DNA from: a virus
IMG/VR virus record: IMGVR_UViG_3300049919_000164
Coordinates: 1 to 38,828 of that record
Direction: 5' to 3' (one strand)
DNA length: 38,828 bases
Shown here: positions 128 to 27,615 of the stretch, one piece after another
Layout: every line of letters begins with the position of its first letter
How positions within the stretch are numbered: position 1 is the first letter of the stretch
Position numbers and translations under genes: made by a program
Notes under the pieces: generated by a model
Seen by the model: only the letters and a program-made list of their open reading frames with translations
What the model was told of the DNA's origin: nothing
Databases searched by the model: none

Positions 128-1732
128 GCTTACAAATCCGTGTGCATCACCAATTTCAGTTTTGTCACGTTTTAACAATAATGCTAGTGCTGTGGCATAA
201 TATCCATCTAGTTTAGTTTTCAGCCAAGAAATAAAGTTACTTTCTGTAATGTGCTGCCAAATACCACTTGTTATTTTGAAAAGAAATGACGAACCACTAG
301 CAATGGTTGTATCACTTCCATCTACATCAGTTAAATTACTTAACTTACTTTCAACATGAATAGATAGCTCAATAATACCATTAACAGCGTGCTTCACTGA
401 TAAAATACCAACTTTTACTTTGTTGTTTGGTGCAGCGGGTGCTACGTTTGTAAGTTTTCCAGCATTTGATGCATCTAAATAAAGTGTATCGCCCTCTGCC
501 CAACCGCTTACATTGGTGTTTAATCCTCGAACTTTACCACCGCTTTTCGTGATACGCCCAACTTGATTATTTCCAATTGTAGCCACTGTTACAATCCCAA
601 TACAATCCTGACTTTTATTGTCATTTGTGGCATCGGTTAAGCATACGCCTGTACGATTACCAGAAGCCCCGCAAATGCTTACCACATCCATCTCTACAAT
701 GTCATTTCCCTGTAAATTTATGTATAAATCATAAGGCTCTTGATTGTTTTGAATAACACCACCATCGGCTAATTTATAGGCATAGCATTGATTTACTTCG
801 TCAAAAAATAATGCTTTTGCTGGTAGTGCTGTAATTTCGGCTACGGTATATACTTTTGGACATATTATCGAATCTGGTTGAATTATTTCGGCTGAATGGT
901 CGTGCCCGAGAGGTGATGCACCAACTTCACTAGCTTGAGTTGGGACTACAACATTAACTTTTCTATTTAAATCTACAGTTAAATCAACACCATTTTTTTG
1001 AACGCCAATAATAATATTTTTTTCTGCATCATTTGGAGCTGTTGATTTTGCATTCCATGTATCTTTTTCTGTAGTATTGGTGAATTTATTTGTGGTAGTT
1101 GCATCTGGAATATTATCAGCTGTCAATGGAATACTATAACCAGCAGAGCCAATACCATTAATAGCTTTGATAGCGTCATTAGGGCTACTATGTTTTTCCC
1201 ACCCAAGAGTACCATAGCTTATTATCCAATCGTCCTGCCAAAAAAAAGTAGTATTATAGTCGTAAGAATCAGAAGCGATAAAATAAATACCTAAATTAGT
1301 GGCATTTGCTTCTGGCAAAGGAAAGCCATCATATTCCGCATCGTCAGATGTGATTATGTTGTTGAAAACGCTCCATCTCCCTTTATATGTTAGCCCACCA
1401 CCACTTAAAAAAGTTGGTAAAGCCGAAATTAGCGTTTTCTTCTTGCCACCTAGAATTATGTAGTCTTCATCGGTAGGAGTGCTTACAGTAAAAGTATCTA
1501 GTTTGTCAGCTATTTGTTGGGCTGTCATTTCTCCGCCTACTCCACCAGTCTGGTCTACCCATTCAGTATCATAGTTTGTGTCAGACTTCTTTGCGAGTAC
1601 TTGCGAGGTTGTTCCGCCTGATGGTACGCCATTAGGAGCAAATACCAAATGATTAATATCAAAAGTTACATTCGGTGCTTGAGTAATTACAAACTCAGGA
1701 CTGTTTACGTTATGATATATGTTGAATGTCAT
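1..1732 (-). CDS. Tail fibre / receptor-binding protein, N-terminal part (joins 37575-38701)
   Basis: The minus-strand frame starts at ATG 1732 (MTFNIYHNVNS) and stays open to base 1. It continues in the same frame on the other end of the circle to a stop at 37575, giving about 952 residues. The start overlaps the stop of the preceding gene (ATGA). The N-terminal half carries the GWAEGDTLYLDASNAGKLT-type motif common in phage tail fibres, followed by VGILSVKHAVNGIIELSIH. A TTG at 38771 could be read as a start, but it lies inside this open frame. By position, after tape measure and tail-tip genes, this is most likely the fibre that meets the host surface. The receptor is unknown. Confidence 0.85.
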   Translation of the reverse strand, partial: MTFNIYHNVNSPEFVITQAPNVTFDINHLVFAPNGVPSGGTTSQVLAKKSDTNYDTEWVDQTGGVGGEMTAQQIADKLDTFTVSTPTDEDYIILGGKKKTLISALPTFLSGGGLTYKGRWSVFNNIITSDDAEYDGFPLPEANATNLGIYFIASDSYDYNTTFFWQDDWIISYGTLGWEKHSSPNDAIKAINGIGSAGYSIPLTADNIPDATTTNKFTNTTEKDTWNAKSTAPNDAEKNIIIGVQKNGVDLTVDLNRKVNVVVPTQASEVGASPLGHDHSAEIIQPDSIICPKVYTVAEITALPAKALFFDEVNQCYAYKLADGGVIQNNQEPYDLYINLQGNDIVEMDVVSICGASGNRTGVCLTDATNDNKSQDCIGIVTVATIGNNQVGRITKSGGKVRGLNTNVSGWAEGDTLYLDASNAGKLTNVAPAAPNNKVKVGILSVKHAVNGIIELSIHVESKLSNLTDVDGSDTTIASGSSFLFKITSGIWQHITESNFISWLKTKLDGYYATALALLLKRDKTEIGDAHGFVSPPNSSNFTISNVGSSITVNLLSNAGNYKINGADYVNSGLTLT

Positions 1733-2070
1733 ACTATTTCAGATTGAATTTGATTATTGGTATAATTAATTCCAAATGGAGTAGTAGCAACTATCTCGCT
1801 TTGAACATCGGCACTATCTATCCATATATTTACTAAAACTTCCCCTAATCCTAAAGTCTTTGCATCTTTTCCTTTTATCTCGATAAGCAAAGTCGATGCG
1901 CTCTGAATTGTCAGAGGTAGATAGCCAGTTTTAGCCACTACGGACATTTTAAGCGTTTTAAATTTACCGATTAAGTAAACTATAACATTGTCGTAATCGC
2001 TCCAATCAAAGTCAACTGACTGTGCAACTATTGTAGTATTTATCGGATTCCCTAATGGTATGTTTTCCAT
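1729..2070 (-). CDS. Small structural or tail-associated protein, 113 aa
   Basis: The 113-residue reading frame is rich in beta-forming residues and ends in repeats of QSEIV (residues about 90 and 109). It follows a terminator hairpin and its stop overlaps the fibre start by four bases, so the two are probably translated together. It may be a small tail or baseplate component or a fibre partner. I do not recognise a family. A strand-rich fold with no membrane segment or catalytic motif fits a virion part. Confidence 0.7.
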   Translation of the reverse strand: MENIPLGNPINTTIVAQSVDFDWSDYDNVIVYLIGKFKTLKMSVVAKTGYLPLTIQSASTLLIEIKGKDAKTLGLGEVLVNIWIDSADVQSEIVATTPFGINYTNNQIQSEIV

Positions 2071-2084
2071 TTTGTGTTGTATTA

Positions 2085-2122
2085 AAAAAGCCCGACTTCC
2101 TGTTTAGCCGGTCGGGCTTTTT
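2085..2122 (-). terminator. Intrinsic terminator between tail genes
   Basis: GCCCGAC (2090-2096) pairs with GTCGGGC (2111-2117), flanked by A and T runs on both sides, so it can end transcription in either direction. On the late (minus) strand it lies between the 31-aa gene and the 113-aa gene. It may set lower expression of the fibre and lysis genes. Confidence 0.8.
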
Positions 2123-2163
2123 AGTTATTTACTTTGTTTTCTATTAATAGCATCTTGTACCTG

Positions 2164-2259
2164 CTATGGTAATTGTGCTATGTCGTCTGCTGTGGTGTAG
2201 TCGCTGTGCTTGTAAGCTTTACCGCCAAAATAAGTTCCTGTATTCATATTAATAGCCAT
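2164..2259 (-). CDS. Micro-protein, 31 aa, in tail gene cluster
   Basis: A 31-codon frame starts at ATG 2259, or at an internal ATG at 2247 (27 aa). The start overlaps the stop of the preceding tail-tip gene, as expected for a coupled gene. The product has the pattern GGKAYKHSDYTTADDIAQ and no membrane segment. It is followed by the terminator at 2085-2122. It is real if related phages keep it. Function unknown. Confidence 0.45.
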   Translation of the reverse strand: MAINMNTGTYFGGKAYKHSDYTTADDIAQLP

Positions 2260-3316
2260 CAATCGCTATTGTCCACGTTACTAATTCGGTAGCTACAACA
2301 TCGTTCAAAGTAGTTCCTTTTAAAACTAATTCAGCGTTTACATTAGCAGAGTTTGCATCCGTGTTGTTTGAGAATACTGCAGTACCTGCATAAGTAGGAT
2401 TGTTTTCTTTAAATGCTAATAACTGATTCGCTACTGACAAAGCGCTTAAATCACAATTGTTTGCAAGCATTATAAGTGCGTTATGTGCTAATAAGTAAGT
2501 TATTCCAAAACATCCCCTTGTATCTACATAGCCGTAATTACCTAATAAATTAATTTCACCAACAAATGCAGCCGCAGCAGTAGTAGTACCATCGTACATT
2601 ATAAAGTTAACAGAATCTTTCGGCACTACCAGCTTAACAGCTCCAGCAACACCCGTGTAATCGTAATCAATAGCGCCACTTGTCGAAGTCAATAACATAC
2701 CGTTTGGAAGTACTCCGTAACAAGTTTTGTTGCTATCAACTTTGAGATAAACTTTTTTTGGTGTTATTTGTCCATTACCGATTGTTAGCGTTGTTATAAC
2801 TTCATAGTCAATCCAATTAAAAGTAGCTTTATCAGTGAACAACATTGGGTAGTTAACCATATTTTCATCAAAAGTCAACAATATACCTCCGTGTGTTTCG
2901 GTGCTAGAAAGTTCTTGAGAAGTTGTTTTTAATCGAAGTCCTCGCTCTAACCCAAATACAATGTATTGACCATCAATTTGCTTGCCAACAAACACCCATT
3001 CATCATCTTTTAATTGCATGATTTGATTTTGTGAAAGTTCTGTGTTTGGTATTAAAAATACCTCAATCGTCTTTGCAAATTTTATCAAACCATAAGCGTT
3101 TTTTTCGCCATCGCTTTTTGGTTTATATGCAGTATCTTGTGCTGGTTGATAAACGGGTATAACTGACTCAGATGGTGTGAATGTGGCTACTAAATCAGTG
3201 ATTGATTTGCCAACAATTCCACTTCTTAAAGTTAAATATCCATTATGTTCCATTCCAAATGGAGTTGAACAACCAGTATTTATTGCGCTGTCTAATTTAT
3301 CTTCTGAGCAAATCAT
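2249..3316 (-). CDS. Tail-tip or receptor-interacting protein, 355 aa (paralogue of the 3545-4123 product)
   Basis: The N-terminus (CSEDKLDSAINTGC, residues 3-16) closely matches CFTDKLNSAINSGC of the gene at 3545-4123. Similarity continues through a QxMQLxxDE motif and a GLxxT motif, so the two are paralogues. This copy has a longer C-terminal region. The start overlaps the preceding stop by four bases. Placement between tape measure and fibre suggests a tail-tip or baseplate role, which is inference from position. Confidence 0.7.
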   Translation of the reverse strand: MICSEDKLDSAINTGCSTPFGMEHNGYLTLRSGIVGKSITDLVATFTPSESVIPVYQPAQDTAYKPKSDGEKNAYGLIKFAKTIEVFLIPNTELSQNQIMQLKDDEWVFVGKQIDGQYIVFGLERGLRLKTTSQELSSTETHGGILLTFDENMVNYPMLFTDKATFNWIDYEVITTLTIGNGQITPKKVYLKVDSNKTCYGVLPNGMLLTSTSGAIDYDYTGVAGAVKLVVPKDSVNFIMYDGTTTAAAAFVGEINLLGNYGYVDTRGCFGITYLLAHNALIMLANNCDLSALSVANQLLAFKENNPTYAGTAVFSNNTDANSANVNAELVLKGTTLNDVVATELVTWTIAIDGY

Positions 3317-3540
3317 GTTGTAGTTGTTTTTAAAAGCCTACCATTAAATATGATTGACTTTTCTTTATTTTCAAAATTAAGTAATTCAAACAATGCATCG
3401 TTAAAACAATCTCTGCATTTCATATCTTTTAATCGCATTTCCTTTCCGAACTTTTCTAAATAAGTACTTTTTATTAAAGCCTTATCATCACTACTCAATG
3501 CGTGTTTATTGAGTAGCGATTTTAGATAAGTGGCATCCAT
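3313..3540 (-). CDS. Small protein, 75 aa, between the paralogous tail-tip genes
   Basis: A 75-residue, mostly helical and charged protein with CRDC (residues about 42-45), ending in a threonine run. Its stop overlaps the start of the 355-aa gene by four bases and it begins five bases after the 192-aa gene. It may be a chaperone or structural partner of its neighbours. I recognise no family. Confidence 0.65.
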   Translation of the reverse strand: MDATYLKSLLNKHALSSDDKALIKSTYLEKFGKEMRLKDMKCRDCFNDALFELLNFENKEKSIIFNGRLLKTTTT

Positions 3541-3544
3541 TCTA

Positions 3545-4123
3545 TTAAGCGATTAATGCTGCAATGATTGCATCTGTTGTAGCTTCGTCTGTTTTCCAAA
3601 TAAAAGCAACTGGCAATAGAGCTTCTTTTTCCATCATTTCAATAGTCCAACCGAATGCGTCCTGATTTTCCATTGCAAAAGCAGCTTTTGTAGTAGTCAA
3701 ACCCTTAGAAGGAGCTAACAACATATATTTATTTTTTTCAGCAGCAGTATAAGATTTGTTTTGCAAAATCAAATAGTATTCATCGTTACCAAGCTGCATA
3801 ACTTGTTTAACTTTGTCGGGGCTATTACCTAAGATAAGAAATCCAGCGGTCGAGTTAAATTTCAAAACGTATTCTCCTCTTTCGCCTTCAATCTTTACGG
3901 CTTTAAAAGGCATTTCTGCGTTTTGGGTTACTTTGTAGCCTTTATCAGCGCCAACCAAAGCGAATGTATTAATAACTACAGAACCAGAATCATAAGCCAA
4001 TGTGGCTTCATTAATAAATTGACGAGCAACAAGAATACCATCTCGCTCAACGCCAACAGTTTGATTTTGACATCCACTATTGATAGCAGAATTTAATTTG
4101 TCAGTGAAACAAGGCTGTGCCAT
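3545..4123 (-). CDS. Tail-tip or virion protein, 192 aa, first gene after the second late promoter
   Basis: A 192-residue protein starting MAQPCFTDKLNSAINSGC. It shares this N-terminus and later motifs (QVMQLGNDEYY, SKGLTTTKA) with the 355-aa product downstream. It is the first gene behind the late promoter with a dyad at 4193-4208. Its own promoter and its position right after the tape measure gene suggest it is needed in high amount, as a major virion or tail protein would be. The exact role is unknown. Confidence 0.7.
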   Translation of the reverse strand: MAQPCFTDKLNSAINSGCQNQTVGVERDGILVARQFINEATLAYDSGSVVINTFALVGADKGYKVTQNAEMPFKAVKIEGERGEYVLKFNSTAGFLILGNSPDKVKQVMQLGNDEYYLILQNKSYTAAEKNKYMLLAPSKGLTTTKAAFAMENQDAFGWTIEMMEKEALLPVAFIWKTDEATTDAIIAALIA

Positions 4124-4155
4124 AATTATAATGTTTTAAATTGTTTTCTTTTTTG

Positions 4156-4163
4156 CAAAAATA
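4156..4163 (-). promoter_or_regulatory. Late promoter -7 box (TATTTTTG) for the 192-aa gene operon
   Basis: Read on the minus strand the box is TATTTTTG followed by CAAAAAAG, which fits the Bacteroidota TAnnTTTG pattern. It lies about 33 bases before the ATG at 4123. The same box and downstream bases precede the portal gene (15638-15645), with the same upstream dyad at the same distance. Confidence 0.7.
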
Positions 4164-4192
4164 TAAATATAAATAGGTATTAAATATCAATG

Positions 4193-4208
4193 TGTCGATT
4201 ATACGACA
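4193..4208. promoter_or_regulatory. Late-promoter dyad TGTCG-N6-CGACA, copy 1
   Basis: A perfect inverted repeat TGTCG/CGACA around six AT-rich bases. It ends one base before the tape-measure stop codon. It lies exactly 29 bases upstream (minus strand) of the TATTTTTG box at 4156-4163. The copy at 15675-15690 has the same layout, so this is likely a binding site for an activator of late genes. Confidence 0.65.
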
Positions 4209-7064
4209 TTATGATTTTAAAGTACTTACGTTGTCTATAAAATCAACTTGATTTTGCGCTCTTTTTAGTTCAACAAGTGATAATTCAACTTTTGGAGCAT
4301 ATATTGCTGGTTCATTTGCTTTTGCCATACTTACATTAGCAGCACCGCTTGTTATCGCATTACTTCCTCCGCTACCTTGAATAGCACCAACAGACCCGCT
4401 TAATGGGTTTGCCATCTTAGATGTCATATCTGGCGGCAATGCTGGAGCTTTTGCACCACCACCGCCACCACCAGTATCGCTCGGTGATGGTATTGGGGTT
4501 GCTATTATAGTTGCAACTTGCAGTGCGGCTGCTATTCCTGCTGCAATAGCTAATGGTATGCCTGGAGCACCCATTCCCAACATTGCAATTACAGAAGCAG
4601 CACCGTTGATGATAGTATTAACAACTTGCATAGCCTTATTCCTTACGGCCTGTTGGTGGTCTATTTTTGCTTTCTTCTTTGCGTACTCTTCATCAAAATT
4701 AGCTTTCCCTTTGTTTTGTTCAGCCCAAAGTTGAAGCTCGTTTTCTGCGAGTGCGTCTGCAAAAGAAAAAGCTCCTTGAAGTACATCTGCGCTCGCGTTA
4801 GCCCATTTGAATACATTTTCAATTTTTGTTTGAGTAGCTTGTTTGTCTGCCTCCTCGTTTAACTGTCGGTATCTTTCTCGGATGTTAAATTCTTCTTGAC
4901 TCCCCTCTGCAACTGCACTAAGTTCTAAATTCATTTGGTCTGAAAGTTGCAATTGAGTTAATCGCAATGTTTCATCTGCATTAAATTGCGCTTCGTTCAA
5001 TTGATTGTCATAGGCATCAATTGAGTCTTGAAGCATTTTAGCCCTTTTTTCTTCGCTATCTTTTACTGGGTCTTTTCCTTTGTTTTTTTTATTGAATTGC
5101 GCTTGAAATATATCAGTGTCATCTATTAATGCTCTCGCATCGTTTTTCATTTTTTCAAACTGCTTATCAAGCTTTGCGTTTAACTTATATTCTTCAATAC
5201 GTTCTTTTTTTAATTTAGCTAGCGAATCATCATGTTTCTTTTTATTGTTTTTATCGTCTTTATCGTCTTTATCGTCTTCCGATAGCATGTTATTTTTATC
5301 TACTATATACTGATTTTTTAAATCTAAAGCCGTTGCATCTTCTTTTGCACGCCTTAAATTCCCAAGGGTGTTAACATACTCTATAGATTTATTGATTGAC
5401 TTTTGTAATCCATTTATTTCATCTTCTCTTGCTTTAATTCCAGTACTAGATTTTAATAAAAAACTTTTTTCATTTTCTTTTTTTATTTCTTCACCTAATA
5501 CAACTATTTTTTCCTGTTTTGATTTATATATGTTCTTTTCAGCAACTATTTCTTCGTTAAGATATTTAATATAATCTTTTTCAGATTGTGCTCTTTTTTC
5601 AAAGTCTTTCAATCTGCTTTGTGCCGAATTTTGAGCATCATACTTTGCAATATCTGCATCTGACATTGTTAGCCTTTGAAGTCCAGAAACAGCATTAGCC
5701 GCTTTGTCTAGCATATTTTTCAAGAATCTTGCAAACTTACCATCTCCATTTTCAACTGATAATATAAAACTCTCCCATGTAGATTTAAGAAAGTTTGTTT
5801 TGCCTGAAATAGTATCCATCATTTTTGCTGCTGCTATTTCGCTAGCGCCAGCTGAATTTTGAAATTCTTTTGTTAACTTTGGTATAAGCTCGTTTTGGTC
5901 TTTCAAAACTAATAATGCTGTTTTTGCATGTACCCCCACCTCATCCTCTGCTCCTGCTAGATTAAGCCCTTCCTTTGCTAGTTTTTGTAACTTTTCTTGA
6001 AGTGTTCCACCATCTTTTGTAAGTTCTGAGAATATACGTCTTAAAGCAGTTCCTGCCATTGATCCTTTTATCCCGCTATTTGCTAAAACTCCTAATAATG
6101 CAGCTGTTTCTTCAACTGAAACACCTACTTGTTTTGCTACTGGAGCAACATATTTTATTGATTCGGAAAAATTATCTAAACCTAAAGCGGTTGCATTAAA
6201 CGATTGTGTCATTACATCTGCCACTCTTTTTGACTCTCCAGCACTTAGTCCAAAAGCCATTGTAACAGAACCAACTATTTCAGCAGTCTTTTGTAGACTT
6301 TCACCTGTTGCTGCTGCTGCTAATGTAACTCCACCAGTGGCATCAATTATTTGTTGGGTAGTATAACCTAATTTCCCAAGTTCAACTTCCAATCCTGCTA
6401 CCTCAGACGCTGTAAACTTTGTTGATGTTCCATATTGAATAGCAATATCCCTAAGTTGCTTCATTTCTTCCTTTGTTGCCATTGTAATCGCTGATACATT
6501 CGCCATTTGTTGGTCAAATTCAGTAATAACTCCTAAAGCATTTCGTAGCGCAGTTCCTAATCCTGCTACAATAGCAGTAGCACCGATAAAACCCATAAAA
6601 CGTTTACTTAACCCACCTAAACCACGTTCATATTCGGCAACTCCTCTTTGTGATTGTCCTACTGTTTTATCGATTGATTTTAGCCTATCATTAAGCGCAT
6701 TTGCTTCTTTTGCTGCTTTGCTTATTTCCTTTGCAGTTGCCGTGTTGGATGCTGCTAAGTCTTTAGCCTTTGCCTGTGCTTTTGTATAGGCTGTTTGCAG
6801 CTTATCATAAGAACCCATTGCGGATTGTGTGGATTTTATTTCCGTTTGAACCTCACGCTTTAAAACATTTTTTTGACGTGTGTATTCTTTTATGGCAATA
6901 GCATTTTGTTCATATTGTGTTTTTTCTTTTTCACTACCTTTTTTCAATGCAGCTTGTCCCGCTGAAAGTTTTTCAATTTCAGCGGTTAAAAGTTTTATTT
7001 GTTGAATACCTTCACCAATCGGGACTTTTATCTCAATAATTTTTGTTTCTGTAGTAGTTGCCAT
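4209..7064 (-). CDS. Tail tape measure protein, 951 aa
   Basis: The longest gene of the tail cluster. Residues about 1-150 are charged and coiled-coil-like. A hydrophobic stretch follows (GFIGATAIVAGLGTAL, about 158-173), then a TP901-type tape measure domain (YGTSTKFTASEVAGLEVELG). A second long coiled region contains a DDKDDKDDKNNKKK tract, and a hydrophobic Ala/Ile-rich segment lies near 800-850. The protein sets tail length and lines the tail tube. Its size is typical for a long non-contractile tail. It follows the 610-aa tail gene and ends just before a late promoter. Confidence 0.93.
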   Translation of the reverse strand: MATTTETKIIEIKVPIGEGIQQIKLLTAEIEKLSAGQAALKKGSEKEKTQYEQNAIAIKEYTRQKNVLKREVQTEIKSTQSAMGSYDKLQTAYTKAQAKAKDLAASNTATAKEISKAAKEANALNDRLKSIDKTVGQSQRGVAEYERGLGGLSKRFMGFIGATAIVAGLGTALRNALGVITEFDQQMANVSAITMATKEEMKQLRDIAIQYGTSTKFTASEVAGLEVELGKLGYTTQQIIDATGGVTLAAAATGESLQKTAEIVGSVTMAFGLSAGESKRVADVMTQSFNATALGLDNFSESIKYVAPVAKQVGVSVEETAALLGVLANSGIKGSMAGTALRRIFSELTKDGGTLQEKLQKLAKEGLNLAGAEDEVGVHAKTALLVLKDQNELIPKLTKEFQNSAGASEIAAAKMMDTISGKTNFLKSTWESFILSVENGDGKFARFLKNMLDKAANAVSGLQRLTMSDADIAKYDAQNSAQSRLKDFEKRAQSEKDYIKYLNEEIVAEKNIYKSKQEKIVVLGEEIKKENEKSFLLKSSTGIKAREDEINGLQKSINKSIEYVNTLGNLRRAKEDATALDLKNQYIVDKNNMLSEDDKDDKDDKNNKKKHDDSLAKLKKERIEEYKLNAKLDKQFEKMKNDARALIDDTDIFQAQFNKKNKGKDPVKDSEEKRAKMLQDSIDAYDNQLNEAQFNADETLRLTQLQLSDQMNLELSAVAEGSQEEFNIRERYRQLNEEADKQATQTKIENVFKWANASADVLQGAFSFADALAENELQLWAEQNKGKANFDEEYAKKKAKIDHQQAVRNKAMQVVNTIINGAASVIAMLGMGAPGIPLAIAAGIAAALQVATIIATPIPSPSDTGGGGGGAKAPALPPDMTSKMANPLSGSVGAIQGSGGSNAITSGAANVSMAKANEPAIYAPKVELSLVELKRAQNQVDFIDNVSTLKS

Positions 7065-13782: not shown

Positions 13783-14376
13783 TTAATTGTGTTTTGTAAA
13801 TATGTTTTTTAATAAATCCTTTTCAATAATTGGTTTGATAGTATCGCCTTCAACTTTTGCATCGCTTCGAAGTGTACAAGCCACATCGGCTGGCTCTGGT
13901 GCAAATGCTACGTGTTTAGGCTGCCATTTTAAAGCAGTGTAAGAAACATTACCATCCACATCCAAACGCATTACATTAAAGATATTGCAGCCTATTGATA
14001 CTGATTTCAACACACCATTTTCAATATCCAATAATAATGCTTCGTCAGCTCTTGCACCTAACTTGAATGTAGCTACAATTTGGCCGTTACCAATTTCATA
14101 TGATATTGAAATACCTCTCAAGTCTTCGGCTTCACGCTCCCAATGTGATTCAAATAAAGGCAAACCACTATCTAAGCGGTCAGTCATTACTGCATCAGGT
14201 GAACATCTCAATACCTCGGTAAACTCCTCATACATATCAGCATATTTGTAACCCTGCAATTTGATAGGGTTTTCGGTTGCAATAACAGCCGTAAAACTTT
14301 TATCTTCACGATTAACAGTAAATGCTGCATCGCTACGAAAGGTTTCAAATCCTAATTTAGTTTCCGTATTTTTCAT
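13783..14376 (-). CDS. Prohead serine protease, HK97 (U35) type, 197 aa
   Basis: A 197-residue protein with His78 in a FESHW context and Ser127 in the VSIGC context. These correspond to the catalytic His and Ser of the herpesvirus/HK97 prohead protease fold. The size agrees with the family. It overlaps the portal gene end and is followed by the capsid gene, the standard portal-protease-capsid order. It should cleave the capsid N-terminal delta domain during head maturation. Confidence 0.88.
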   Translation of the reverse strand: MKNTETKLGFETFRSDAAFTVNREDKSFTAVIATENPIKLQGYKYADMYEEFTEVLRCSPDAVMTDRLDSGLPLFESHWEREAEDLRGISISYEIGNGQIVATFKLGARADEALLLDIENGVLKSVSIGCNIFNVMRLDVDGNVSYTALKWQPKHVAFAPEPADVACTLRSDAKVEGDTIKPIIEKDLLKNIFTKHN

Positions 14377-15619
14377 ATAATTTGTTTAATTGCATTGTTG
14401 TATTAATTCCTGCATTTTTTAAAGCAGTTAGATTTTCAATAAGTATTTTATCAGATTCAAGTTCTAATTTTCTGTTGGCTTGTAAAAATCCAATATCAGA
14501 CGTTTTAACAGCTATCTTTTCATTTGTAAGTCCAAACATATTAGTTAAGTCCTTACAAATATCATTTGCATAACTAACAGCAATATCGCTCCAAATTTTA
14601 GCCTCAGCAACTTCCTTATTTGTGAATGTAGTACCCTCTTTCAAAGGTAGTAAATCCTTATCAACTCCGAATATGCCCGCAATAGCTAAAAAGTTAGCAA
14701 CACTTTCTTCGAGTGGCATTAAATCCTTTATGCTTACCAATGTATTAAGTCCTGCTAATGGCGTATCTGATACAGCTTTTATTTGTCTGTCACCAGTCAA
14801 ACCAAAACGATTATTAATATCTTTGATAATATCGTCCCGCTTTGCAGGATTAAGTGCAGCCGCTAAATCATTCTGATTTTTTTGCTGTGGAAATAAAATG
14901 TAAGCAGTGCCATTATTTACATAAACGTTATACCTCGCCTGATATACTGCTAAAAGATTATCGACATTGTTTTTTGCAGCAAACAAAGGACTTAAACCCC
15001 TGTAATCCGATGTGCTCCTATCTTTTAAATAACTCTTTGAATGAATTATAAATTTAGGGCTTATCTTATCGACTGTCAAAGAATAATCGTAATACTGAAT
15101 ATAATCTTCAATTGTTGCAGCTTTCAACATATCCATTTCAGTTGTTTTTAACTGAATTTGAACCTTGTCAGGCTGCAATAATAGTATTGATTGAACATTG
15201 TCTTTAGTAATTTTTTCGGTGTCCTGTGGACATTTAAAATACAAATATCCATTACCGTCCGACAACTCAGAAAAGACAAAGTTGTAAATCAAATCAGTGA
15301 ATGAACCATCATATATATTCGGCTTCGAGAATAAACGCTGCATATTGCTATTCATGCGTATTTCTTTGCCTGCACTGTTCTCTAAATGAACCGTCTCAAA
15401 TAATTTAGCTACCTTTTCAGCAATACAGTCAATCGGAAAAAAAACCTCCGCTAATTGGCTTGCAATTAAATATCCATTATCGTTTGAAAGTTTTAACGGC
15501 AATATCTGCTCCGACACATTTAAGTAAGTAAAAAACGAACCATCCGAAAGCTGCGTGAATGACGCTGTTTGTTGCGGTGCTGTTGCTTGTTTTTTCCTTA
15601 AAAAGTCGAGTGCTCCCAT
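14357..15619 (-). CDS. Portal protein, HK97 family, 420 aa
   Basis: I choose ATG 15619 (MGALDFLRKKQATAPQQ). An extended frame to 15691 would begin inside the late-promoter dyad, and the promoter box at 15638-15645 lies downstream of that start. The protein has the family features: an SDGNGYLYFKCP segment, the YRGLSPLFAAKNNVDNLL helix, and a C-terminal region on a FTNKEVAEAKIWSDIAVSYAN helix. It forms the dodecameric DNA gate at the head vertex and binds terminase. It overlaps the protease gene by 20 bases. Confidence 0.9.
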   Translation of the reverse strand: MGALDFLRKKQATAPQQTASFTQLSDGSFFTYLNVSEQILPLKLSNDNGYLIASQLAEVFFPIDCIAEKVAKLFETVHLENSAGKEIRMNSNMQRLFSKPNIYDGSFTDLIYNFVFSELSDGNGYLYFKCPQDTEKITKDNVQSILLLQPDKVQIQLKTTEMDMLKAATIEDYIQYYDYSLTVDKISPKFIIHSKSYLKDRSTSDYRGLSPLFAAKNNVDNLLAVYQARYNVYVNNGTAYILFPQQKNQNDLAAALNPAKRDDIIKDINNRFGLTGDRQIKAVSDTPLAGLNTLVSIKDLMPLEESVANFLAIAGIFGVDKDLLPLKEGTTFTNKEVAEAKIWSDIAVSYANDICKDLTNMFGLTNEKIAVKTSDIGFLQANRKLELESDKILIENLTALKNAGINTTMQLNKLYEKYGN

Positions 15620-15637: not shown

Positions 15638-15645
15638 CAAAAATA
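15638..15645 (-). promoter_or_regulatory. Late promoter -7 box (TATTTTTG) for the portal operon
   Basis: On the minus strand the box reads TATTTTTG followed by CAAAAAAGAA, as at 4156-4163. It lies about 19 bases before the portal ATG. The dyad at 15675-15690 is exactly 29 bases upstream, the same distance as at the other late promoter. Confidence 0.7.
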
Positions 15646-15647
15646 TA

Positions 15648-15676
15648 TTGTAATTCAATAATAATTTATATCTTTG
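15648..15676 (+). promoter_or_regulatory. Plus-strand promoter for the 15.7-16.5 kb genes
   Basis: TTG (15648-15650), then 18 bases, then TATCTTTG (15669-15676), matching the Bacteroidota -33/-7 pattern. The late dyad begins at 15675 and so covers the likely start point. Binding there would block this promoter while helping the divergent late one. Confidence 0.65.
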
Positions 15677-15690
15677 TCGGTTATACGACA
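15675..15690. promoter_or_regulatory. Late-promoter dyad TGTCG-N6-CGACA, copy 2
   Basis: The sequence TGTCGGTTATACGACA is a perfect 5-base inverted repeat with a six-base spacer. It differs by one base from copy 1 at 4193-4208 (spacer ATTATA versus GTTATA). It sits between two divergent promoters. Confidence 0.65.
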
Positions 15691-15703: not shown

Positions 15704-15997
15704 ATGATACTGCCATTAACAAAGTACAAAGAGGTTTATCACCCTACAAAATCGGTTAGAACTGTTGAACGCATGGTAAAAAGCGGATTAGTTCCTGAGA
15801 ATCATATACGAATAGGTGGAAGCATAAAACCTTTGTTAATAGAGATAGTTGATGATAATGGCATTAAATTACACTATTACCCTTTTGTGGTAGATTTCTT
15901 GCTAACTAAACTGATTTCACTTCAATCAGCAGCGCAATATTGCTGTGAAAATAACCTATCAATGTCAACATTTTGTAAATTAGCTAAATTGAAATAG
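15704..15997 (+). CDS. Possible DNA-binding protein, 97 aa, first gene of an island between portal and terL
   Basis: ATG 15704 (MILPLTKYKEVYHPTKSV) lies about 28 bases after a TATCTTTG promoter box. Residues 15-33 (RTVERMVKSGLVPENHIR) resemble a short helix-turn-helix of the kind in excisionase-like regulators, and a second helical region follows near 70-95. It is transcribed away from the portal gene and against terL. It could regulate the divergent late promoter, which is an inference from position. Confidence 0.6.
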   Translation: MILPLTKYKEVYHPTKSVRTVERMVKSGLVPENHIRIGGSIKPLLIEIVDDNGIKLHYYPFVVDFLLTKLISLQSAAQYCCENNLSMSTFCKLAKLK

Positions 15998-15998
15998 T

Positions 15999-16172
15999 AT
16001 GATTTGTCCGCAAGGTAAGCACCAATTTAAGACGTGCAAAGATGCTGTTATCTTTAATAAGGCTAATGGATTAAAATACGGTGAATACTATAATGTCTAT
16101 CGATGTACCTTTTGCAATGATTACCACCTATCAAGTAGAGAGAAGAAAGTTAAACGAATAAAACATATTTAA
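15999..16172 (+). CDS. Small zinc-binding protein, 57 aa
   Basis: The frame starts at ATG 15999, two bases after the previous stop (MICPQGKHQFKTC). Cys3 and Cys13, then CTFC (Cys36 and Cys39), with nearby His residues, look like a zinc ribbon. The C-terminus is basic. A similar CPIC/CIIC protein is encoded at 21960-22064. It belongs to the same plus-strand transcript as its neighbours. Function unknown; nucleic-acid binding is plausible. Confidence 0.6.
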   Translation: MICPQGKHQFKTCKDAVIFNKANGLKYGEYYNVYRCTFCNDYHLSSREKKVKRIKHI

Positions 16173-16183
16173 AAAATAACATT

Positions 16184-16471
16184 ATGAAAAAGACTATTTT
16201 ATTTCTCGCTATTATTCTAGCTTCATGTTCTTCGGAACTAGATGTTCCTGTTGTTTTGAATGACTATCTATTTACTCAATCAATATCAGTTACTAAGGGG
16301 ATTACTAATTCAAATCCAGTAGGTATGACTACAAGAACTGAGAATAAATTTAAAATGTTACAGATTACAGAGAAAAAAGCAATTGATGTATGTAAAGAAA
16401 AAACATATACTAAAAAAGTGTCTGATATTATGACTAGCAGTGTAACTACATTCGTTGCAATTAATAAATAA
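16184..16471 (+). CDS. Small lipoprotein, 95 aa (candidate superinfection-exclusion or moron protein)
   Basis: It starts MKKTILFLAIILASCSSELD: a type II signal peptide with lipobox LASC and Cys15 as the acylated residue. The mature part is about 80 residues, polar, with no membrane segment. The gene ends 11 bases inside the convergent terL 3' end. Phage-encoded lipoproteins outside the lysis cluster often alter the host envelope, for example to block superinfection. That role is inferred and not visible in the sequence. Confidence 0.65.
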   Translation: MKKTILFLAIILASCSSELDVPVVLNDYLFTQSISVTKGITNSNPVGMTTRTENKFKMLQITEKKAIDVCKEKTYTKKVSDIMTSSVTTFVAINK

Positions 16472-18392: not shown

Positions 18393-18400
18393 CAAAAATA
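18393..18400 (-). promoter_or_regulatory. Candidate minus-strand promoter box for the terminase genes
   Basis: TATTTTTG on the minus strand followed by CACTATGG. The TGTCG dyad found at the two other late promoters is not present 29 bases upstream, so this may be an earlier or weaker promoter. Confidence 0.45.
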
Positions 18401-18466
18401 CAAATAAATACTCAATATATATATTTTTTCTCTGATTTAACAAATATTAACTATAAACATAGTATG

Positions 18467-18492
18467 TATATCGAAATTTCGTTATATCTTTG
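18467..18492 (+). promoter_or_regulatory. Early promoter with overlapping dyad
   Basis: TATCTTTG (18485-18492) lies 26 bases before ATG 18518. A near-perfect palindrome spans 18467-18486: TATA, T, CGAAATTTCG, T, TATA. It overlaps the box and is placed to act as an operator. This is the likely first promoter of the plus-strand early operon. Confidence 0.6.
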
Positions 18493-18517
18493 CATATCAT
18501 TTAAAAACAAGGATATT

Positions 18518-18868
18518 ATGAGAACGATAGCAGAAAATTATAATGGTAAAGTATTAGCAGTAGCAAATCAAGGTTTTAGTATTAAAAACGCATCAAAACG
18601 CATTGAAAAATCAATTGAAGTTCTTGGTTTTTCTACTGAAAAGGAAATTGCAAAAACTGGTTCAACTTATATCACTGTTTTTGGACTAGATGATTTAAGT
18701 ATAGTTACTATCAGAGTTTCTAATCACGGTAAGAGAGGTCATGATGAATTTTCTACATTTAATTATACTACTGATAGATTTGGTGCAATTGTGCTTGAAT
18801 CTGTTGAAATTCTTAATACTGAAATGTTGAATGAGTTTTTATCTAATTATAAAACTATATTTAATTAA
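18518..18868 (+). CDS. Early protein of unknown function, 116 aa
   Basis: Start chosen at ATG 18518 (MRTIAENYNGKVL), behind the TATCTTTG box; an upstream ATG at 18464 lies before the promoter. The protein has mixed helix and strand, with the basic loop NHGKRGHDEF near residue 70. It is the first gene of the early operon, so it may act at once on host functions. I recognise no family. Confidence 0.65.
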   Translation: MRTIAENYNGKVLAVANQGFSIKNASKRIEKSIEVLGFSTEKEIAKTGSTYITVFGLDDLSIVTIRVSNHGKRGHDEFSTFNYTTDRFGAIVLESVEILNTEMLNEFLSNYKTIFN

Positions 18869-18912
18869 CAACTAATCGGGATATGCAAACAGCCAACTAA
18901 AACGAAACAAAT

Positions 18913-19080
18913 ATGAAAGACAAAATTAAAAAAGCAATGGCGGATCAAAAAGTATCAGCTTACAAATTGAGTAAAGAGTGCCAAATCCCATACAGCACAC
19001 TTACTTGTTACCTAGAGAAAGAACACACGGATACATCTAGCCGCAATGTTGAAATGATGAAAAAATACCTACGGATATGA
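18913..19080 (+). CDS. Small HTH regulator, 55 aa
   Basis: The frame from ATG 18913 (MKDKIKKAMADQKVSAYKLS) has a helix-turn-helix (SAYKLSKECQIPYSTLTCYL, residues about 15-34). The fold resembles a minimal XRE domain without a dimerisation tail. Two other small HTH proteins occur at 27287-27454 and 30691-30873. The stop overlaps the next gene (ATGA). It may bind the dyad at 18467-18486. Confidence 0.65.
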   Translation: MKDKIKKAMADQKVSAYKLSKECQIPYSTLTCYLEKEHTDTSSRNVEMMKKYLRI

Positions 19081-19223
19081 TAGAGTCTATAATCTTTCTA
19101 TTTGTTATTTTAGTAGCTATTATAACACTAACAGTATGGTTTTTAACCAGCAAAACAAAAGATTCAATTGATAAAGAAATTAATAACATTTATAAAAACA
19201 ATAATCGAAATGAAAAAGTTTAA
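19077..19223 (+). CDS. Single-pass membrane protein, 48 aa
   Basis: The frame begins at ATG 19077 in an ATGA overlap with the HTH gene. Residues 3-23 (ESIIFLFVILVAIITLTVWF) form one membrane segment, followed by a short polar tail. Its stop lies inside the following gene's start region. Function unknown. Confidence 0.55.
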   Translation: MIESIIFLFVILVAIITLTVWFLTSKTKDSIDKEINNIYKNNNRNEKV

Positions 19224-19509
19224 AGAAGGGCAAAAAGTATGGTGTTGGAGTCATTTCAGCCATGCAATGGTTACAAGTGATTTATTAGATGGTACTTTTC
19301 TAATTAAATTTAAAGCATTTAATGATGAATACCAAGTAAACAGGTGCGATTTAAGGCTATCTATTTATGATTCTATAGTACGGCTAGACAATGCGTGTGA
19401 TAATGCCGTGGTAAGGCTTGTAAAGCGGAAATTGCGCAAATTTAGCAACTTGGTTGTATTAGGGTCAATTGTTTTATTATTATCAACTTTTTTATTTTTG
19501 ATTATATGA
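19210..19509 (+). CDS. Protein with C-terminal membrane anchor, 99 aa
   Basis: ATG 19210 (MKKFKEGQKVWCWSHFSHAM) is preferred over 19168 because it follows the previous gene with a short overlap. Residues about 1-50 look like a small SH3-like or strand-rich domain (KEGQKVWCW). The last 22 residues (NLVVLGSIVLLLSTFLFLII) form a membrane segment. The stop overlaps the next gene by four bases. Function unknown. Confidence 0.6.
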   Translation: MKKFKEGQKVWCWSHFSHAMVTSDLLDGTFLIKFKAFNDEYQVNRCDLRLSIYDSIVRLDNACDNAVVRLVKRKLRKFSNLVVLGSIVLLLSTFLFLII

Positions 19510-19727
19510 GTAAGATTTCAGTAATTATAGAAGATGTGTATTTCGATATTAACTACACATACACAAGAAGCGAGAGCGGTGATATGACTAACCAGCCAAT
19601 CGATGACGAGTGTATAATTGAGAGAGTAAAATGTGGTGAATTTGATTTTACCAACCTATTTTTAGAATATGAGAATTTAATGGATGAAGCAATAAAATAC
19701 ATTTTGACACATGAAAGAGATAATTAG
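19506..19727 (+). CDS. Small acidic early protein, 73 aa
   Basis: A 73-residue acidic protein (MSKISVIIEDVYFDINYTYT) coupled to its neighbours through an ATGA overlap upstream and a 17-base overlap downstream. No membrane segment or known motif. Its acidity would fit a DNA mimic or protein inhibitor, but there is no direct evidence. Confidence 0.55.
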   Translation: MSKISVIIEDVYFDINYTYTRSESGDMTNQPIDDECIIERVKCGEFDFTNLFLEYENLMDEAIKYILTHERDN

Positions 19728-19935
19728 TGCAATTGACTTGTATGTATGTCAGTTGAAGCATATAAATGAATGGGTTGAGTATTCTCCTAAATTTATGGAG
19801 CATAGGCGTATTATAATCGCTATGGTGATTGAGAGGTTAAGCCAACGGCTTGTAAAATCATTACTAGCACCTATTGTAGAAAATGATATTCTTAGTAGTT
19901 CAATAGGCTATAATCAGGATTTTATTAATTTTTAA
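19711..19935 (+). CDS. Small helical early protein, 74 aa
   Basis: A 74-residue, mostly helical protein (MKEIISAIDLYVCQLKHINE) starting inside the previous gene. No recognised motif. It belongs to the same co-directional early operon. Confidence 0.5.
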   Translation: MKEIISAIDLYVCQLKHINEWVEYSPKFMEHRRIIIAMVIERLSQRLVKSLLAPIVENDILSSSIGYNQDFINF

Positions 19936-19959
19936 GATATAAGCTAAATAAAAAAAATT

Positions 19960-20187
19960 ATGACACAAAAAGAAAAGAACGCACTGATTGAAAAAGTGGC
20001 AAAACAGGCTAATAAGATTAGAATAGAGTTTGACAATGTAAAAGCAGCCGAGAACAAAGTTATAACTGAATGCCGAAAACGCATTGAGGATGCTAAAAAA
20101 GAAGCCGATGATAATTTCAACGTGCTTTGTATGGAGAATGACATTAGTTCTAAATTTTTAAAACAAATACTAAATGGGAGCGAGTAA
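19960..20187 (+). CDS. Small coiled-coil early protein, 75 aa
   Basis: A 75-residue, highly charged, helical protein (MTQKEKNALIEKVAKQANKI) that looks like a single coiled coil. It starts 24 bases after the previous gene. The next short frame begins inside its 3' end. Function unknown. Confidence 0.6.
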   Translation: MTQKEKNALIEKVAKQANKIRIEFDNVKAAENKVITECRKRIEDAKKEADDNFNVLCMENDISSKFLKQILNGSE

Positions 20188-20275
20188 AAGAGCTTTTATG
20201 GATATGAGAACCGACATAGATAACGGTTACGATGGTATTGACGACAACTATTTTTATTCACAACAAAACAATTAA
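20174..20275 (+). CDS. Acidic micro-protein, 33 aa, before the annealing protein gene
   Basis: The frame ATG 20174 to TAA 20275 codes for 33 residues (MGASKRAFMDMRTDIDNGYD). It overlaps the preceding gene by 14 bases and ends four bases before the next ATG at 20280, so it fits the operon spacing. Its reality is uncertain because it is short. Confidence 0.4.
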   Translation: MGASKRAFMDMRTDIDNGYDGIDDNYFYSQQNN

Positions 20276-20279
20276 AAAA

Positions 20280-20837
20280 ATGAAACAAATTATTGCAGCT
20301 TTATTAAAAGCACAAATGGATATGGGTAACGCAAAAAAAGATTCTAAAAACCCATTTTACAATTCTAAGTACGCAGACTTAAATTCTGTTAGAGAAGCAA
20401 TCATGCCTCATCTTAACGAGAATAAAATACTTATACTTCAACCTATGATTACAATAGATGGTTGTGAGTATGTAAAAACAGTTTTACTGCATGAAAGTGG
20501 CGAAACAATAGAATCATTCACCAAGATACTTTGCAAGTCTCAAAACGACCCACAAGCCTATGGAAGTGGTGTTACTTATGCAAGGCGTTATGGTCTTCAA
20601 TCTTTACTTTCTATTGGAGCAGATGACGATGATGGTAACAACGCATCAAAAGAGAAAACACAAAAACAGCAAGAAAAACCTAGTTTCTTAAATGTAGATG
20701 AAGCTGTTAAAGAAATGAAAGCTGTAAAATCTTACTCTGAAATTTCAACAGTATGGAATAAATATGTTGGACTACAAAAAAATGAACTTTTTATTAGTGC
20801 CACAAAAGATGCTGGCGTAAAATTCCCAAAACAATGA
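20280..20837 (+). CDS. erf: ERF-family single-strand annealing protein, 185 aa
   Basis: ATG 20280 (MKQIIAALLKAQMDMGNAKK) follows an A-rich leader; the longer frame from 20232 overlaps the micro-ORF. Residues 1-120 carry ERF-family features: KDSKNPFYNSKYADLNSV, then the AYGSGVTYARRYGLQSLLSI helix and a DDDG motif. ERF proteins anneal complementary single strands in phage recombination and can help to circularise the genome. The next gene starts inside its stop, and the SSB-like protein follows shortly after. Confidence 0.85.
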   Translation: MKQIIAALLKAQMDMGNAKKDSKNPFYNSKYADLNSVREAIMPHLNENKILILQPMITIDGCEYVKTVLLHESGETIESFTKILCKSQNDPQAYGSGVTYARRYGLQSLLSIGADDDDGNNASKEKTQKQQEKPSFLNVDEAVKEMKAVKSYSEISTVWNKYVGLQKNELFISATKDAGVKFPKQ

Positions 20838-21298
20838 GAAAAGAATTAGCAATTGGTGTTGGCTTACCACAAAATAAAGCCGAAATTGATATTTACAATG
20901 CTAATGTAAAAGATTTGGCATTAAGCGGTGAAGTTGATATTATAAAACTTTCACGCACTGTAAATATTATGAAACGTATTGTTGAGTTTTTTGAAAAAGA
21001 ACCTGAAATTCAAGACTGCTTATTAAATGAAGTTCAAAAATATGGTAAAGGAGAGTTATCTGAAATTCAAGTAAAAGAAACTGGAACTAAGTACGATTAT
21101 TTAGGATGTAACTTGCCTGAATATATACAAGTCATTGAAAGCATAAACGAACTTACCGAGAGAAAAAAACAGCTTGAAACTTATCTAAAAACAATTATAA
21201 AAGAAACTGAGTTTATAGACCCAAGCACGGCTGAATCAGTGATTTTATTACCAGCTATTAAAACAAGCACAACTAAAGTAGTATTCACAATTAAATAA
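20834..21298 (+). CDS. Recombination-operon protein, 154 aa
   Basis: A 154-residue, helical protein with long coiled stretches (NELTERKKQLETYLKTIIKE). It overlaps the annealing gene by four bases and is followed by the ssDNA-binding protein gene, so it probably acts with them in replication or recombination. It is reminiscent of Gp157-like phage proteins in size and context, but I see no firm motif. Confidence 0.55.
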   Translation: MRKELAIGVGLPQNKAEIDIYNANVKDLALSGEVDIIKLSRTVNIMKRIVEFFEKEPEIQDCLLNEVQKYGKGELSEIQVKETGTKYDYLGCNLPEYIQVIESINELTERKKQLETYLKTIIKETEFIDPSTAESVILLPAIKTSTTKVVFTIK

Positions 21299-21305
21299 AA
21301 ATAAA

Positions 21306-21632
21306 ATGATCAAAGGAAAAGTTATTGCAGTACTTCCGCAAACAAGCGGTCAAGGTAAAAATGGGGAGTGGAAAAGTCAAGACTTCGTTATTGAAACAGA
21401 TGGTCAATATCCAAAGAAAGTATGTTTAAACGTATTCGGGGACAAAGTGCCGATACCAAAAATTGATGATACTGTAGATGTCAGCTATGACCCTGAAAGC
21501 CGTGAATACAATGGTAGGTGGTTTACGAATCTACGAGCGTTTAAAATTGATGTTGTAGGCAGTGCATCAAAAGCTGAGCCTATTCAACAAACACAACCAA
21601 CAGCAAGCGAAGGTTCGGATTTGCCTTTCTGA
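21306..21632 (+). CDS. DUF3127-type ssDNA-binding protein, 108 aa
   Basis: A 108-residue OB-fold protein of the DUF3127 type found in Bacteroidota and their phages (MIKGKVIAVLPQTSGQGKNG, then WKSQDFVIET). After a flexible tail rich in Gln, Thr and Pro it ends in SDLPF, which resembles the DDDIPF tip by which bacterial SSB proteins contact their partners. With the neighbouring annealing protein it would coat and hand over single strands. Confidence 0.8.
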   Translation: MIKGKVIAVLPQTSGQGKNGEWKSQDFVIETDGQYPKKVCLNVFGDKVPIPKIDDTVDVSYDPESREYNGRWFTNLRAFKIDVVGSASKAEPIQQTQPTASEGSDLPF

Positions 21633-21653
21633 TTATCAGCACATTAACTAATT

Positions 21654-21677
21654 TCGGGTGGGTTTCGGCTCACCCGA
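21654..21677 (+). terminator. Intercistronic hairpin
   Basis: TCGGGTG (21654-21660) pairs with CACCCGA (21671-21677) around ten bases. No T run follows on the plus strand, so it is more likely an mRNA processing or stability element than a full terminator. Confidence 0.45.
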
Positions 21678-21690
21678 TAAATAAAATAAC

Positions 21691-21963
21691 ATGAAAATAA
21701 ATAGAGATATTACCGAAGCAAAGATAATAAGGCAAGCTAAATCAATTTTTAACAATACGTTTGATGATGTATTAGCAAAGTTCAAAGAAGAAAGTAACGA
21801 ATTGATTGTCGCTTGCGAATCAGAGCCTATCTTTACATTCGAGCAATTGGACGAGCTAGGAGATGTGTGCTACGTACTTTGTCAATTACTAGATATGAGC
21901 CACACTAACTACAACGAAAGCCTTCAACGTGCTTTTGATAAAAACGAAAGGAAAAGAGTATGA
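21691..21963 (+). CDS. MazG-like NTP pyrophosphohydrolase, 90 aa
   Basis: The all-alpha MazG motifs are present: EExxE at residues 33-37 (EESNE) and ExxD at 55-58 (ELGD). These acidic residues bind magnesium and the NTP. At 90 residues it is a single-domain form. Phage MazG-like enzymes may clear (d)NTP variants or alarmones during infection; the substrate is not visible. Its stop overlaps the next small gene. Confidence 0.75.
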   Translation: MKINRDITEAKIIRQAKSIFNNTFDDVLAKFKEESNELIVACESEPIFTFEQLDELGDVCYVLCQLLDMSHTNYNESLQRAFDKNERKRV

Positions 21964-22064
21964 TTTGCCCAATATGTAAAACAGAAGCTAAGAAGCCATT
22001 CCATTTAGTTGACTGCATTATTTGCGGGTATGACGGAAGTACTTTTAATCCTTTATACAAATAG
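21960..22064 (+). CDS. Zinc-ribbon micro-protein, 34 aa
   Basis: The frame from ATG 21960 (ATGA overlap with the MazG-like gene) codes for MICPICKTEAKKPFHLVDCI and ends at 22064. Two CxxC pairs (CPIC at 3-6 and CIIC at 19-22) form a compact zinc ribbon. A related sequence is encoded at 15999-16172. The stop lies where the -33 box of the following RNA promoter begins. Confidence 0.6.
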   Translation: MICPICKTEAKKPFHLVDCIICGYDGSTFNPLYK

Positions 22065-22095
22065 TTGTGTAATTGAAAAGTAATTTGTATATTTG
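22065..22095 (+). promoter_or_regulatory. Promoter of the structured RNA
   Basis: TTG (22065-22067), 20 bases, then TATATTTG (22088-22095): a good Bacteroidota promoter. No reading frame starts behind it before the terminator at 22207. Confidence 0.75.
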
Positions 22096-22099
22096 CAAA

Positions 22100-22207
22100 C
22101 AGTTCAACGTGCAGGGCGAACAAAAGATATTAGAACGAAAGTTCAAAACCGACCCTGTTAATGAAAGAAACCTGCACGTTTCTGGATTTAATAGGGTCTT
22201 TTTATTT
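22100..22207 (+). ncRNA. Structured small RNA or leader attenuator with mutually exclusive hairpins
   Basis: Behind a good promoter lie about 105 untranslated bases that end in a terminator. AACGTGCAGG (22106-22115) pairs perfectly with CCTGCACGTT (22171-22180). GACCCT (22151-22156) pairs with AGGGTC (22193-22198), which is followed by TTTTTATTT: the terminator. An alternative CAGGG/CCCTG pairing (22112-22116 with 22153-22157) competes with both. GAAC-GAAA-GTTC (22133-22144) is a GNRA-capped hairpin. The RNA may be a free regulator, or it may attenuate entry into the replication genes. I recognise no known RNA family. Confidence 0.7.
22151..22207 (+). terminator. Terminator of the structured RNA
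   Basis: GACCCT and AGGGTC form a six-pair stem with a long loop that contains CCTGCACGTT, followed by TTTTTATTT. Because the loop strand can instead pair with 22106-22115, termination could be switched. Confidence 0.6.
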
Positions 22208-22210
22208 AAA

Positions 22211-22384
22211 ACGCAAAACAATAAATAAAACGCAAACTATTTTATTATCGTGCTATATAAAAAATTAATTTCCAAACTGTTAGCACGCAAAAACGCAAAA
22301 ACGATTGATTTGGATCGTTTTCAAAATAAAATATTTTTCATTTTTTTTTCTCAGTATATATATAGAGAATTTTGCGTTTTGCGT
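22211..22384. other. Putative phage replication origin with ACGCAAAA iterons
   Basis: This AT-rich stretch without a gene has ACGCAAA(A/C) at 22211, 22230, 22285 and 22293 on the plus strand and twice on the minus strand (22370-22384). The tandem pairs 22285-22300 and 22370-22384 form an inverted repeat around a very AT-rich segment. Two further dyads are CGTGCTA/TAGCACG (22249-22255, 22281-22287) and AAAACGAT/ATCGTTTT (22298-22305, 22314-22321). It lies just before the primase-helicase gene, the usual place for an origin. Confidence 0.6.
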
Positions 22385-22407
22385 TTTTTACAAATAAATA
22401 TACTATT

Positions 22408-24807: not shown

Positions 24808-24810
24808 ATA

Positions 24811-26217: not shown

Positions 26218-26564
26218 AAGACAAAACTGAGACAAAAATACAACAAGACTGTTTTATATGGTTTAACAATAATTATTGCTTAAACCATCACAATCCAAAA
26301 TGCGTAATATATTCAATACCAAACGATAGTGAAAGCAAAGAGGAAACACTTCGAAAAATGGCTACTGGGATGCGTAGTGGTGCTAGTGATTTAGTGGTTA
26401 TGTTTCCAAATAAATCAATATACATAGAAATGAAAACGCCTACAGGAACGCAATCCGACAACCAAAAGCAATTTCAAAAAGATATTGAAAATCTAGGTTT
26501 TGAATATTGTCTTGCAAGGTCAATAGAACAGTTTAAAGAGATAATTGAAAAACACATAGTATGA
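26214..26564 (+). CDS. VRR-NUC domain nuclease, 116 aa
   Basis: The stand-alone VRR-NUC motifs are present: GASDL with Asp59, YIEMK with Glu72 and Lys74, and a downstream Gln-rich helix (SDNQKQFQ). The residues form the PD-(D/E)xK-like metal site. Such phage nucleases usually sit beside an SF2 helicase, as here (four-base overlap), and may cut branched or recombination intermediates. The length is normal for the family. Confidence 0.88.
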   Translation: MKDKTETKIQQDCFIWFNNNYCLNHHNPKCVIYSIPNDSESKEETLRKMATGMRSGASDLVVMFPNKSIYIEMKTPTGTQSDNQKQFQKDIENLGFEYCLARSIEQFKEIIEKHIV

Positions 26565-26722
26565 CCCAACTCCACCGCCACCTAATAGAAAACAACCGTG
26601 TTTGGTATAGTTCTATTGATTTGATAAATAAGTTCGGCAGAGACGAATTAAACAAGCTATACATCGATGGCTTAATTGATGTAAGAAACGGATTAAACAC
26701 TAAAGTAATTAAACTAAAATGA
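26561..26722 (+). CDS. Small early protein, 53 aa
   Basis: The frame starts at ATG 26561, overlapping the nuclease stop (ATGA), and its own stop overlaps the next start (ATGA at 26719-26722). The product (MTQLHRHLIENNRVWYSSID) looks like a small winged or HTH-like fold. The two tight overlaps support a real gene. Function unknown. Confidence 0.6.
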   Translation: MTQLHRHLIENNRVWYSSIDLINKFGRDELNKLYIDGLIDVRNGLNTKVIKLK

Positions 26723-27078: not shown

Positions 27079-27093
27079 AAAACGTTAAAGCAT

Positions 27094-27125
27094 ATCCGAT
27101 ATATCGGATTTAAAATATATCTTTG
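27094..27125 (+). promoter_or_regulatory. Operator palindrome and promoter for the 27.3 kb HTH gene
   Basis: ATCCGATATATCGGAT (27094-27109) is a perfect 16-base palindrome. TATCTTTG (27118-27125) follows eight bases later. The palindrome covers the spacer and -33 region, as expected for a repressor site. The first gene behind it is the small HTH gene, which suggests autoregulation. Confidence 0.7.
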
Positions 27126-27598: not shown

Positions 27599-27615
27599 GT
27601 TTATTTTTTCTTTTT

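Follow-up and report, generated by a model that had tools for sequence, protein, structure and literature searches.

A shared inverted-repeat and promoter-box module precedes two putative late gene units in a small group of uncultured phages

Two distant minus-strand sites in the window (the whole 38,828-nucleotide stretch of viral DNA analyzed here) carry the same inverted-repeat dyad, TGTCG-N6-CGACA, followed after exactly 29 bases by the same TAnnTTTG-type −7 box, TATTTTTG. The dyads, TGTCGTATAATCGACA and TGTCGTATAACCGACA, are probably, if not strongly so, the operators of one dimeric phage protein that would activate two late promoters, and the binder would most likely be the product of a divergent 97-aa gene next to one of the sites. 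The first-pass annotation had pointed to the common dyad, gap and box at 4156-4208 and 15638-15690, and all three were confirmed as exact. The similarity that it had seen among the remaining bases was also borne out, since the two 53-base modules had in common the arms, the box, and 20 identical bases, TATATTTTTGCAAAAAAGAA.

Between portal and lysis, the minus-strand genes fall into two units set off by the two sites (Table 1), with one dyad promoter heading the head-tail unit and the other heading the tail-tip and lysis side. Both units would be expressed late, judging from their gene content (portal, capsid, tape measure). The 192-aa protein encoded by the first gene of the second unit was modeled with a pLDDT of 33. 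The dyad was absent from the lysis-proximal boxes and from the terminase box at 18393-18400, in agreement with the earlier remark that the terminase promoter has no similar element. The record ends in an exact 127-bp direct repeat (1-127 = 38702-38828), a single 952-aa minus-strand reading frame spans the join (1732 to 37575), and the record is most likely circular and complete, with an assembled length of 38,701 bp. Since the ends are identical and this gene runs across the join, any phage-encoded binder would have to be within the window. The database lists the record without a completeness class.

Table 1. Positions of the two modules and of the gene units around them in the window
Feature	Position	Strand	Remarks
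Terminase genes	18324-16461	-	
Head-tail unit, portal to tape measure (putatively late)	15619 to 4209	-	
Second putative late unit: 192-aa protein, 952-aa gene, endolysin	4123 across join to 34258	-	
Endolysin	34750-35208	-	
Portal protein gene, first in head-tail unit	14357..15619	-	phrog_12 / phrog_2662 portal
Tape measure protein, last gene before second dyad	4209..7064	-	phrog_1533, E 4e-65
192-aa protein, first gene of second unit, phrog_21217 (unknown function)	3545..4123	-	85% / 68% identical in relatives
Early/replication genes: ERF recombinase, SSB, primase-like, helicase	18464-34233	+	
Small gene group between terminase and portal	15704-16471	+	
97-aa protein, prime candidate for a dyad-binding regulator	15704..15997	+	identity 59% (G001), 38% (G002)
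TATCTTTG, divergent TAnnTTTG box of 97-aa gene	15669..15676	+	2-base overlap with dyad
Dyad TGTCGTATAATCGACA, putative late promoter of tail/lysis unit	4193..4208	-	directly 3′ of tape-measure stop codon; kept in G001, G002
TATTTTTG, TAnnTTTG-type −7 box, tail/lysis-unit promoter	4156..4163	-	gap 29 from dyad
Dyad TGTCGTATAACCGACA, putative late promoter of portal/head-tail unit	15675..15690	-	between two divergent genes; kept in G001, G002
TATTTTTG, −7 box of portal promoter	15638..15645	-	gap 29 from dyad

A genome-wide search for TGTCR-N6-YGACA, a check that had been proposed together with the module, returned these two places alone in the whole 38.8-kb record. When up to two mismatches were allowed, eight matches were found in the window against 6.6 expected, which is the chance level, and the one-mismatch versions lay within genes and had no box at the right distance. 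A single dyad at 20-40 nt 5′ of some TAnnTTTG is not rare either, occurring 2.7 times per random genome. However, none of 300 first-order Markov genomes contained a pair of perfect 5+5 dyads that agreed both in their arm and in their distance to a following TAnnTTTG.

Searches with the portal, capsid, 192-aa, and 97-aa proteins all returned one small group, consisting of the relatives G001 (35.6 kb, with the near-identical fragments L004-L006) and G002 (44 kb), which together with the window phage makes three lineages. Conservation in relatives with the same genes, on which the earlier proposal had been made to depend, was found at both junctions: G001 and G002 each contained exactly two TGTCR-N6-YGACA dyads, one before portal (TGTCATATTGATGACA and TGTCATATTTTTGACA, respectively) and one after tape measure (TGTCATGTTGCTGACA and TGTCAATCTTTTGACA). 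The gap between dyad and box was 29 bases at five of the six sites, the exception being the G001 tail site with 28. Both relatives had TGTCA-N6-TGACA at both sites, so that the fifth base of each arm differed symmetrically from the window (G-to-A, C-to-T) at all sites together. Identity was high in the arms (0.87 between orthologous sites and 0.91 between portal and tail sites) and in the −7 box (0.92 and 0.94), whereas it reached 0.39 and 0.48 in the spacer, 0.53 and 0.37 in the gap region, and 0.35 and 0.34 in the 30 bases upstream of the dyad. Inheritance alone would not preserve just the arms and the spacing. A symmetric change made jointly at both places is, as we read the alignments, characteristic of a single dimeric protein that binds DNA at two targets, and the dyad is very probably a protein site. 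The variation of the −7 box goes by genome rather than by site, with TATATTTG present at both G001 sites. The box variant and the bases that follow it were alike within a genome beyond expectation, both at 4156-4175 and 15638-15657 and at the two G001 sites, hinting at concerted evolution or at a shared function of the initial transcribed region.

In Flavobacterium psychrophilum, TAnnTTTG lies at −12 to −5 (PMC9723704), and in Flavobacterium the −33 element is difficult to find too (PMC7366714). By the Flavobacterium mapping, the dyad would span about −57 to −42 with its center near −49.5, 5′ of the core promoter. At both late promoters, such a distance would suit an activator. The standard CRP positions are −41.5 or −61.5, and the dyad center is at neither. 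Most TAnnTTTG matches in the window had no TTG or TTTG at 17-24 nt upstream, and neither did the promoter-like box of the terminase genes. It is plausible that the dyad acts as a replacement for the −33 element, although that element is often missing at other TAnnTTTG boxes of the genome too. Thus, of the late-promoter module with a phage activator that had been proposed at the outset, the shared cis module, its conservation at two junctions with symmetric arm changes, and its activator-like distance held up, whereas an activator rather than another regulator, a phage-encoded binder, and the replacement of the −33 element did not gain the same footing.

A distance of 14 bases separates the dyad from the 97-aa gene, which is divergent from portal. 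In each of the three genomes, the TAnnTTTG box of this gene (TATATTTG in G001 and TATCTTTG in G002, as in the window) and the dyad have exactly 2 bases in common, and consequently transcription of the gene should be blocked when a protein occupies the dyad. A TTG at 18 nt upstream of the divergent box was present in the window only, among the three genomes. When all reading frames were compared, the early regions of the three phages had next to nothing in common, and the shared genes were the virion-type genes, two short minus-strand genes on the lysis side (35609-36125) whose neighbors are not shared, and the 97-aa gene, which near the sites was the sole non-virion-type gene found in all three genomes. 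All relatives of the 97-aa protein in 2.9 million viral contigs adjoined this dyad. The family has two conserved segments, HPxKSxRTVxRMxK and CxENxLxxxxFCK, which on reading give a weak hint of a helix-turn-helix, and the HTH_17 profile (PF12728, excisionase-like) gave an E value of 0.054 in one of the three members and no match at the cut-off. There was no significant Pfam family match, including the Ogr/Delta domain PF04606, and the CX2C-X22-CX4C zinc motif was absent from the protein. The structure model had a pLDDT of 60 and returned no meaningful match in a fold search, and a PDB sequence search gave nothing significant. If a protein does bind the dyad, we give the 97-aa protein about an even chance of being its binder. 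Just 3′ of this gene, at 15999-16172, lies a gene for a 57-aa protein whose C..C and YHL pattern resembles a zinc ribbon by eye; the protein is 85% identical in G001 and was not found in G002.

In the mechanism that we propose, one dimeric, sequence-specific DNA-binding protein would occupy both dyads. Its first target promoter, before portal, would drive the head and tail genes as far as tape measure, and the second, after tape measure, would drive the tail-tip genes and the downstream lysis genes on the same strand. Bound 5′ of the core of the polymerase footprint, the dimer could recruit host RNA polymerase to promoters that have no evident −33 element. At the portal site, the dimer would in addition lie over the region where the divergent gene at 15704-15997 starts, so that this gene would be repressed while the late genes are on, and if the binder is the gene's own product, autorepression would be coupled to late activation. 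A wider reading, which we put forward tentatively and with less than even confidence, is that an undescribed phage family of about 97 aa forms a single-protein switch for the Bacteroidota TAnnTTTG sigma factor, with its own gene repressed, both late units activated from dyads 29 bases 5′ of the −7 box, and operator and protein coevolving.

Since the dyad has a CooA-like geometry and the phage encodes no CRP/FNR protein, a host factor is the main rival to the 97-aa protein. In that case, a host regulator of the CRP/FNR superfamily would bind the same operator and the phage would read host physiology to time its late genes, which we regard as unlikely. The 16-bp palindrome with 5-bp arms and a 6-bp spacer has the CRP/FNR geometry, the consensus of CooA, a member of this superfamily (TGTCGGCNNGCCGACA, a 16-bp TGTCG...CGACA palindrome), has identical outer half-sites (PMC545781), and the 97-aa protein is itself no more than a candidate DNA binder. 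However, a joint arm change at both sites between close phages would come more easily to a dedicated phage binder, even if differing hosts could explain it; a CRP-type HTH (PF13545) is absent from the record, and the candidate, at 97 aa, is without a cNMP-type domain. A host LexA operator was ruled out, as the Bacteroidota LexA motifs, GGA-N5-TCC or CTAA-N5-TTAG (PMC8565304), differ from the dyad. Another phage protein might bind the dyads instead, which seems improbable. The short pair near the lysis region (35609-35791 and 35760-36125) counts against the 97-aa protein in being common to all three phages as well, but it sits in the lysis/late region, and PHROGs gave no hint of a DNA-binding domain in either product. 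Alternatively, each phage could use an HTH protein of its own, unrelated to the others, such as the 68-aa Cro/CI-like protein at 27248-27454 (phrog_1728 and others, E ~1e-6), yet neither G001 nor G002 has a relative of this protein, though the sites are shared.

Two further readings dispense with activation. The overlap with the divergent TAnnTTTG box is a repressor-like position with respect to the 97-aa gene, and the bound protein might silence this gene and the late promoters until induction. We hold this to be quite improbable: at both late promoters the dyad lies at a fixed distance 5′ of the core, where an activator would be placed, there is no divergent promoter at the tail site on which repression could act, and no integrase or lysogeny genes were recognized in the phage. 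Finally, the dyad might act as an RNA hairpin in the transcript, as a terminator, processing or stability element, since the arms can pair and some of the sites fold better than their shuffled versions (z −1.3 to −4.5). This is very improbable, because the stem has five pairs, with an A-U inner pair in the relatives and no U-run, and was listed only by virtue of a T-poor tail. The portal dyad, moreover, lies between divergent genes and 5′ of the box, hence outside the late transcript, and a hairpin leaves the fixed gap to the promoter box unexplained.

A phage late activator with an upstream operator is of a known kind. P2 Ogr and P4 Delta are small phage activators that use a dyad, TGT-N12-ACA, at about −55 of several late promoters, whereas the dyad here is TGT-N10-ACA with its center near −49.5, and the 97-aa candidate has no Cys4 zinc motif. 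Mu C is of a different size and family from the candidate. As proposed here, Mu C binds just 5′ of the core element at several late promoters (PMC4461284), although the Mu promoters are of the sigma-70 type and the overlap of the site with −35 differs. The phi29 protein p4 (A2b/A2c/A3) is likewise a small phage protein with inverted-repeat sites between divergent promoters; it switches on a late promoter whose −35 is poor while repressing the early promoters that face the other way (PMC3100819), an arrangement like the one proposed. Its sites, however, are CTTTTT-15-AAAATG, with several per region and with p6, whereas here each promoter has a single short dyad, the second late promoter stands alone, and the sigma factor is of the TAnnTTTG type. 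In Staphylococcus phage phi13, the late regulator gene ltr adjoins the late promoter (P23) that its product activates (PMC13123087), but Ltr uses four direct repeats and the arrangement is not divergent as in the window phage.

Among 2.9 million viral contigs, searches for the exact module and for a relaxed module with GCAA found it in the window and its relatives; all other matches were chance-like and lay in coding DNA. The more distant isolates snusmum9-1, Arctus_1, and Danklef_2 contained neither a TGTCR dyad nor a comparable repeated pairing of dyad and box; thus, the module is a local device, peculiar to this small group of uncultured phages. MT835752, a terminase relative, has a different layout. 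No portal relative was found among plasmids, and scans of a genome collection with capsid and portal profiles gave no relatives, so that no host or prophage emerged. In the open-access literature searched, no late activator was described for phages with Bacteroidota TAnnTTTG promoters, and as far as searched there appears to be no precedent for the operator, for the candidate protein family, or for the promoter setting. Late-gene regulation in phages with this promoter, in which the −33 element is weak or absent, has been little studied. The two promoters are compact and complete, the operator is defined, and a candidate gene lies alongside, so that the question is directly testable and would yield a small activator-operator pair for Bacteroidota genetics.

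Two minor observations concern repeats. The contig ends of G002 (1583-4597 and 40794-44032) are 87-96% similar and not identical, which points either to mixed strains where the assembly joins or to a genuine duplication. In the window, TGCGGGCG occurs four times, at 27497, 28961, 29483, and 30002, within or close to the intergenic gaps of small plus-strand genes. It is absent from G001 and G002, is followed by ATGTCG in two of the four copies, and is possibly a repeated intergenic element.
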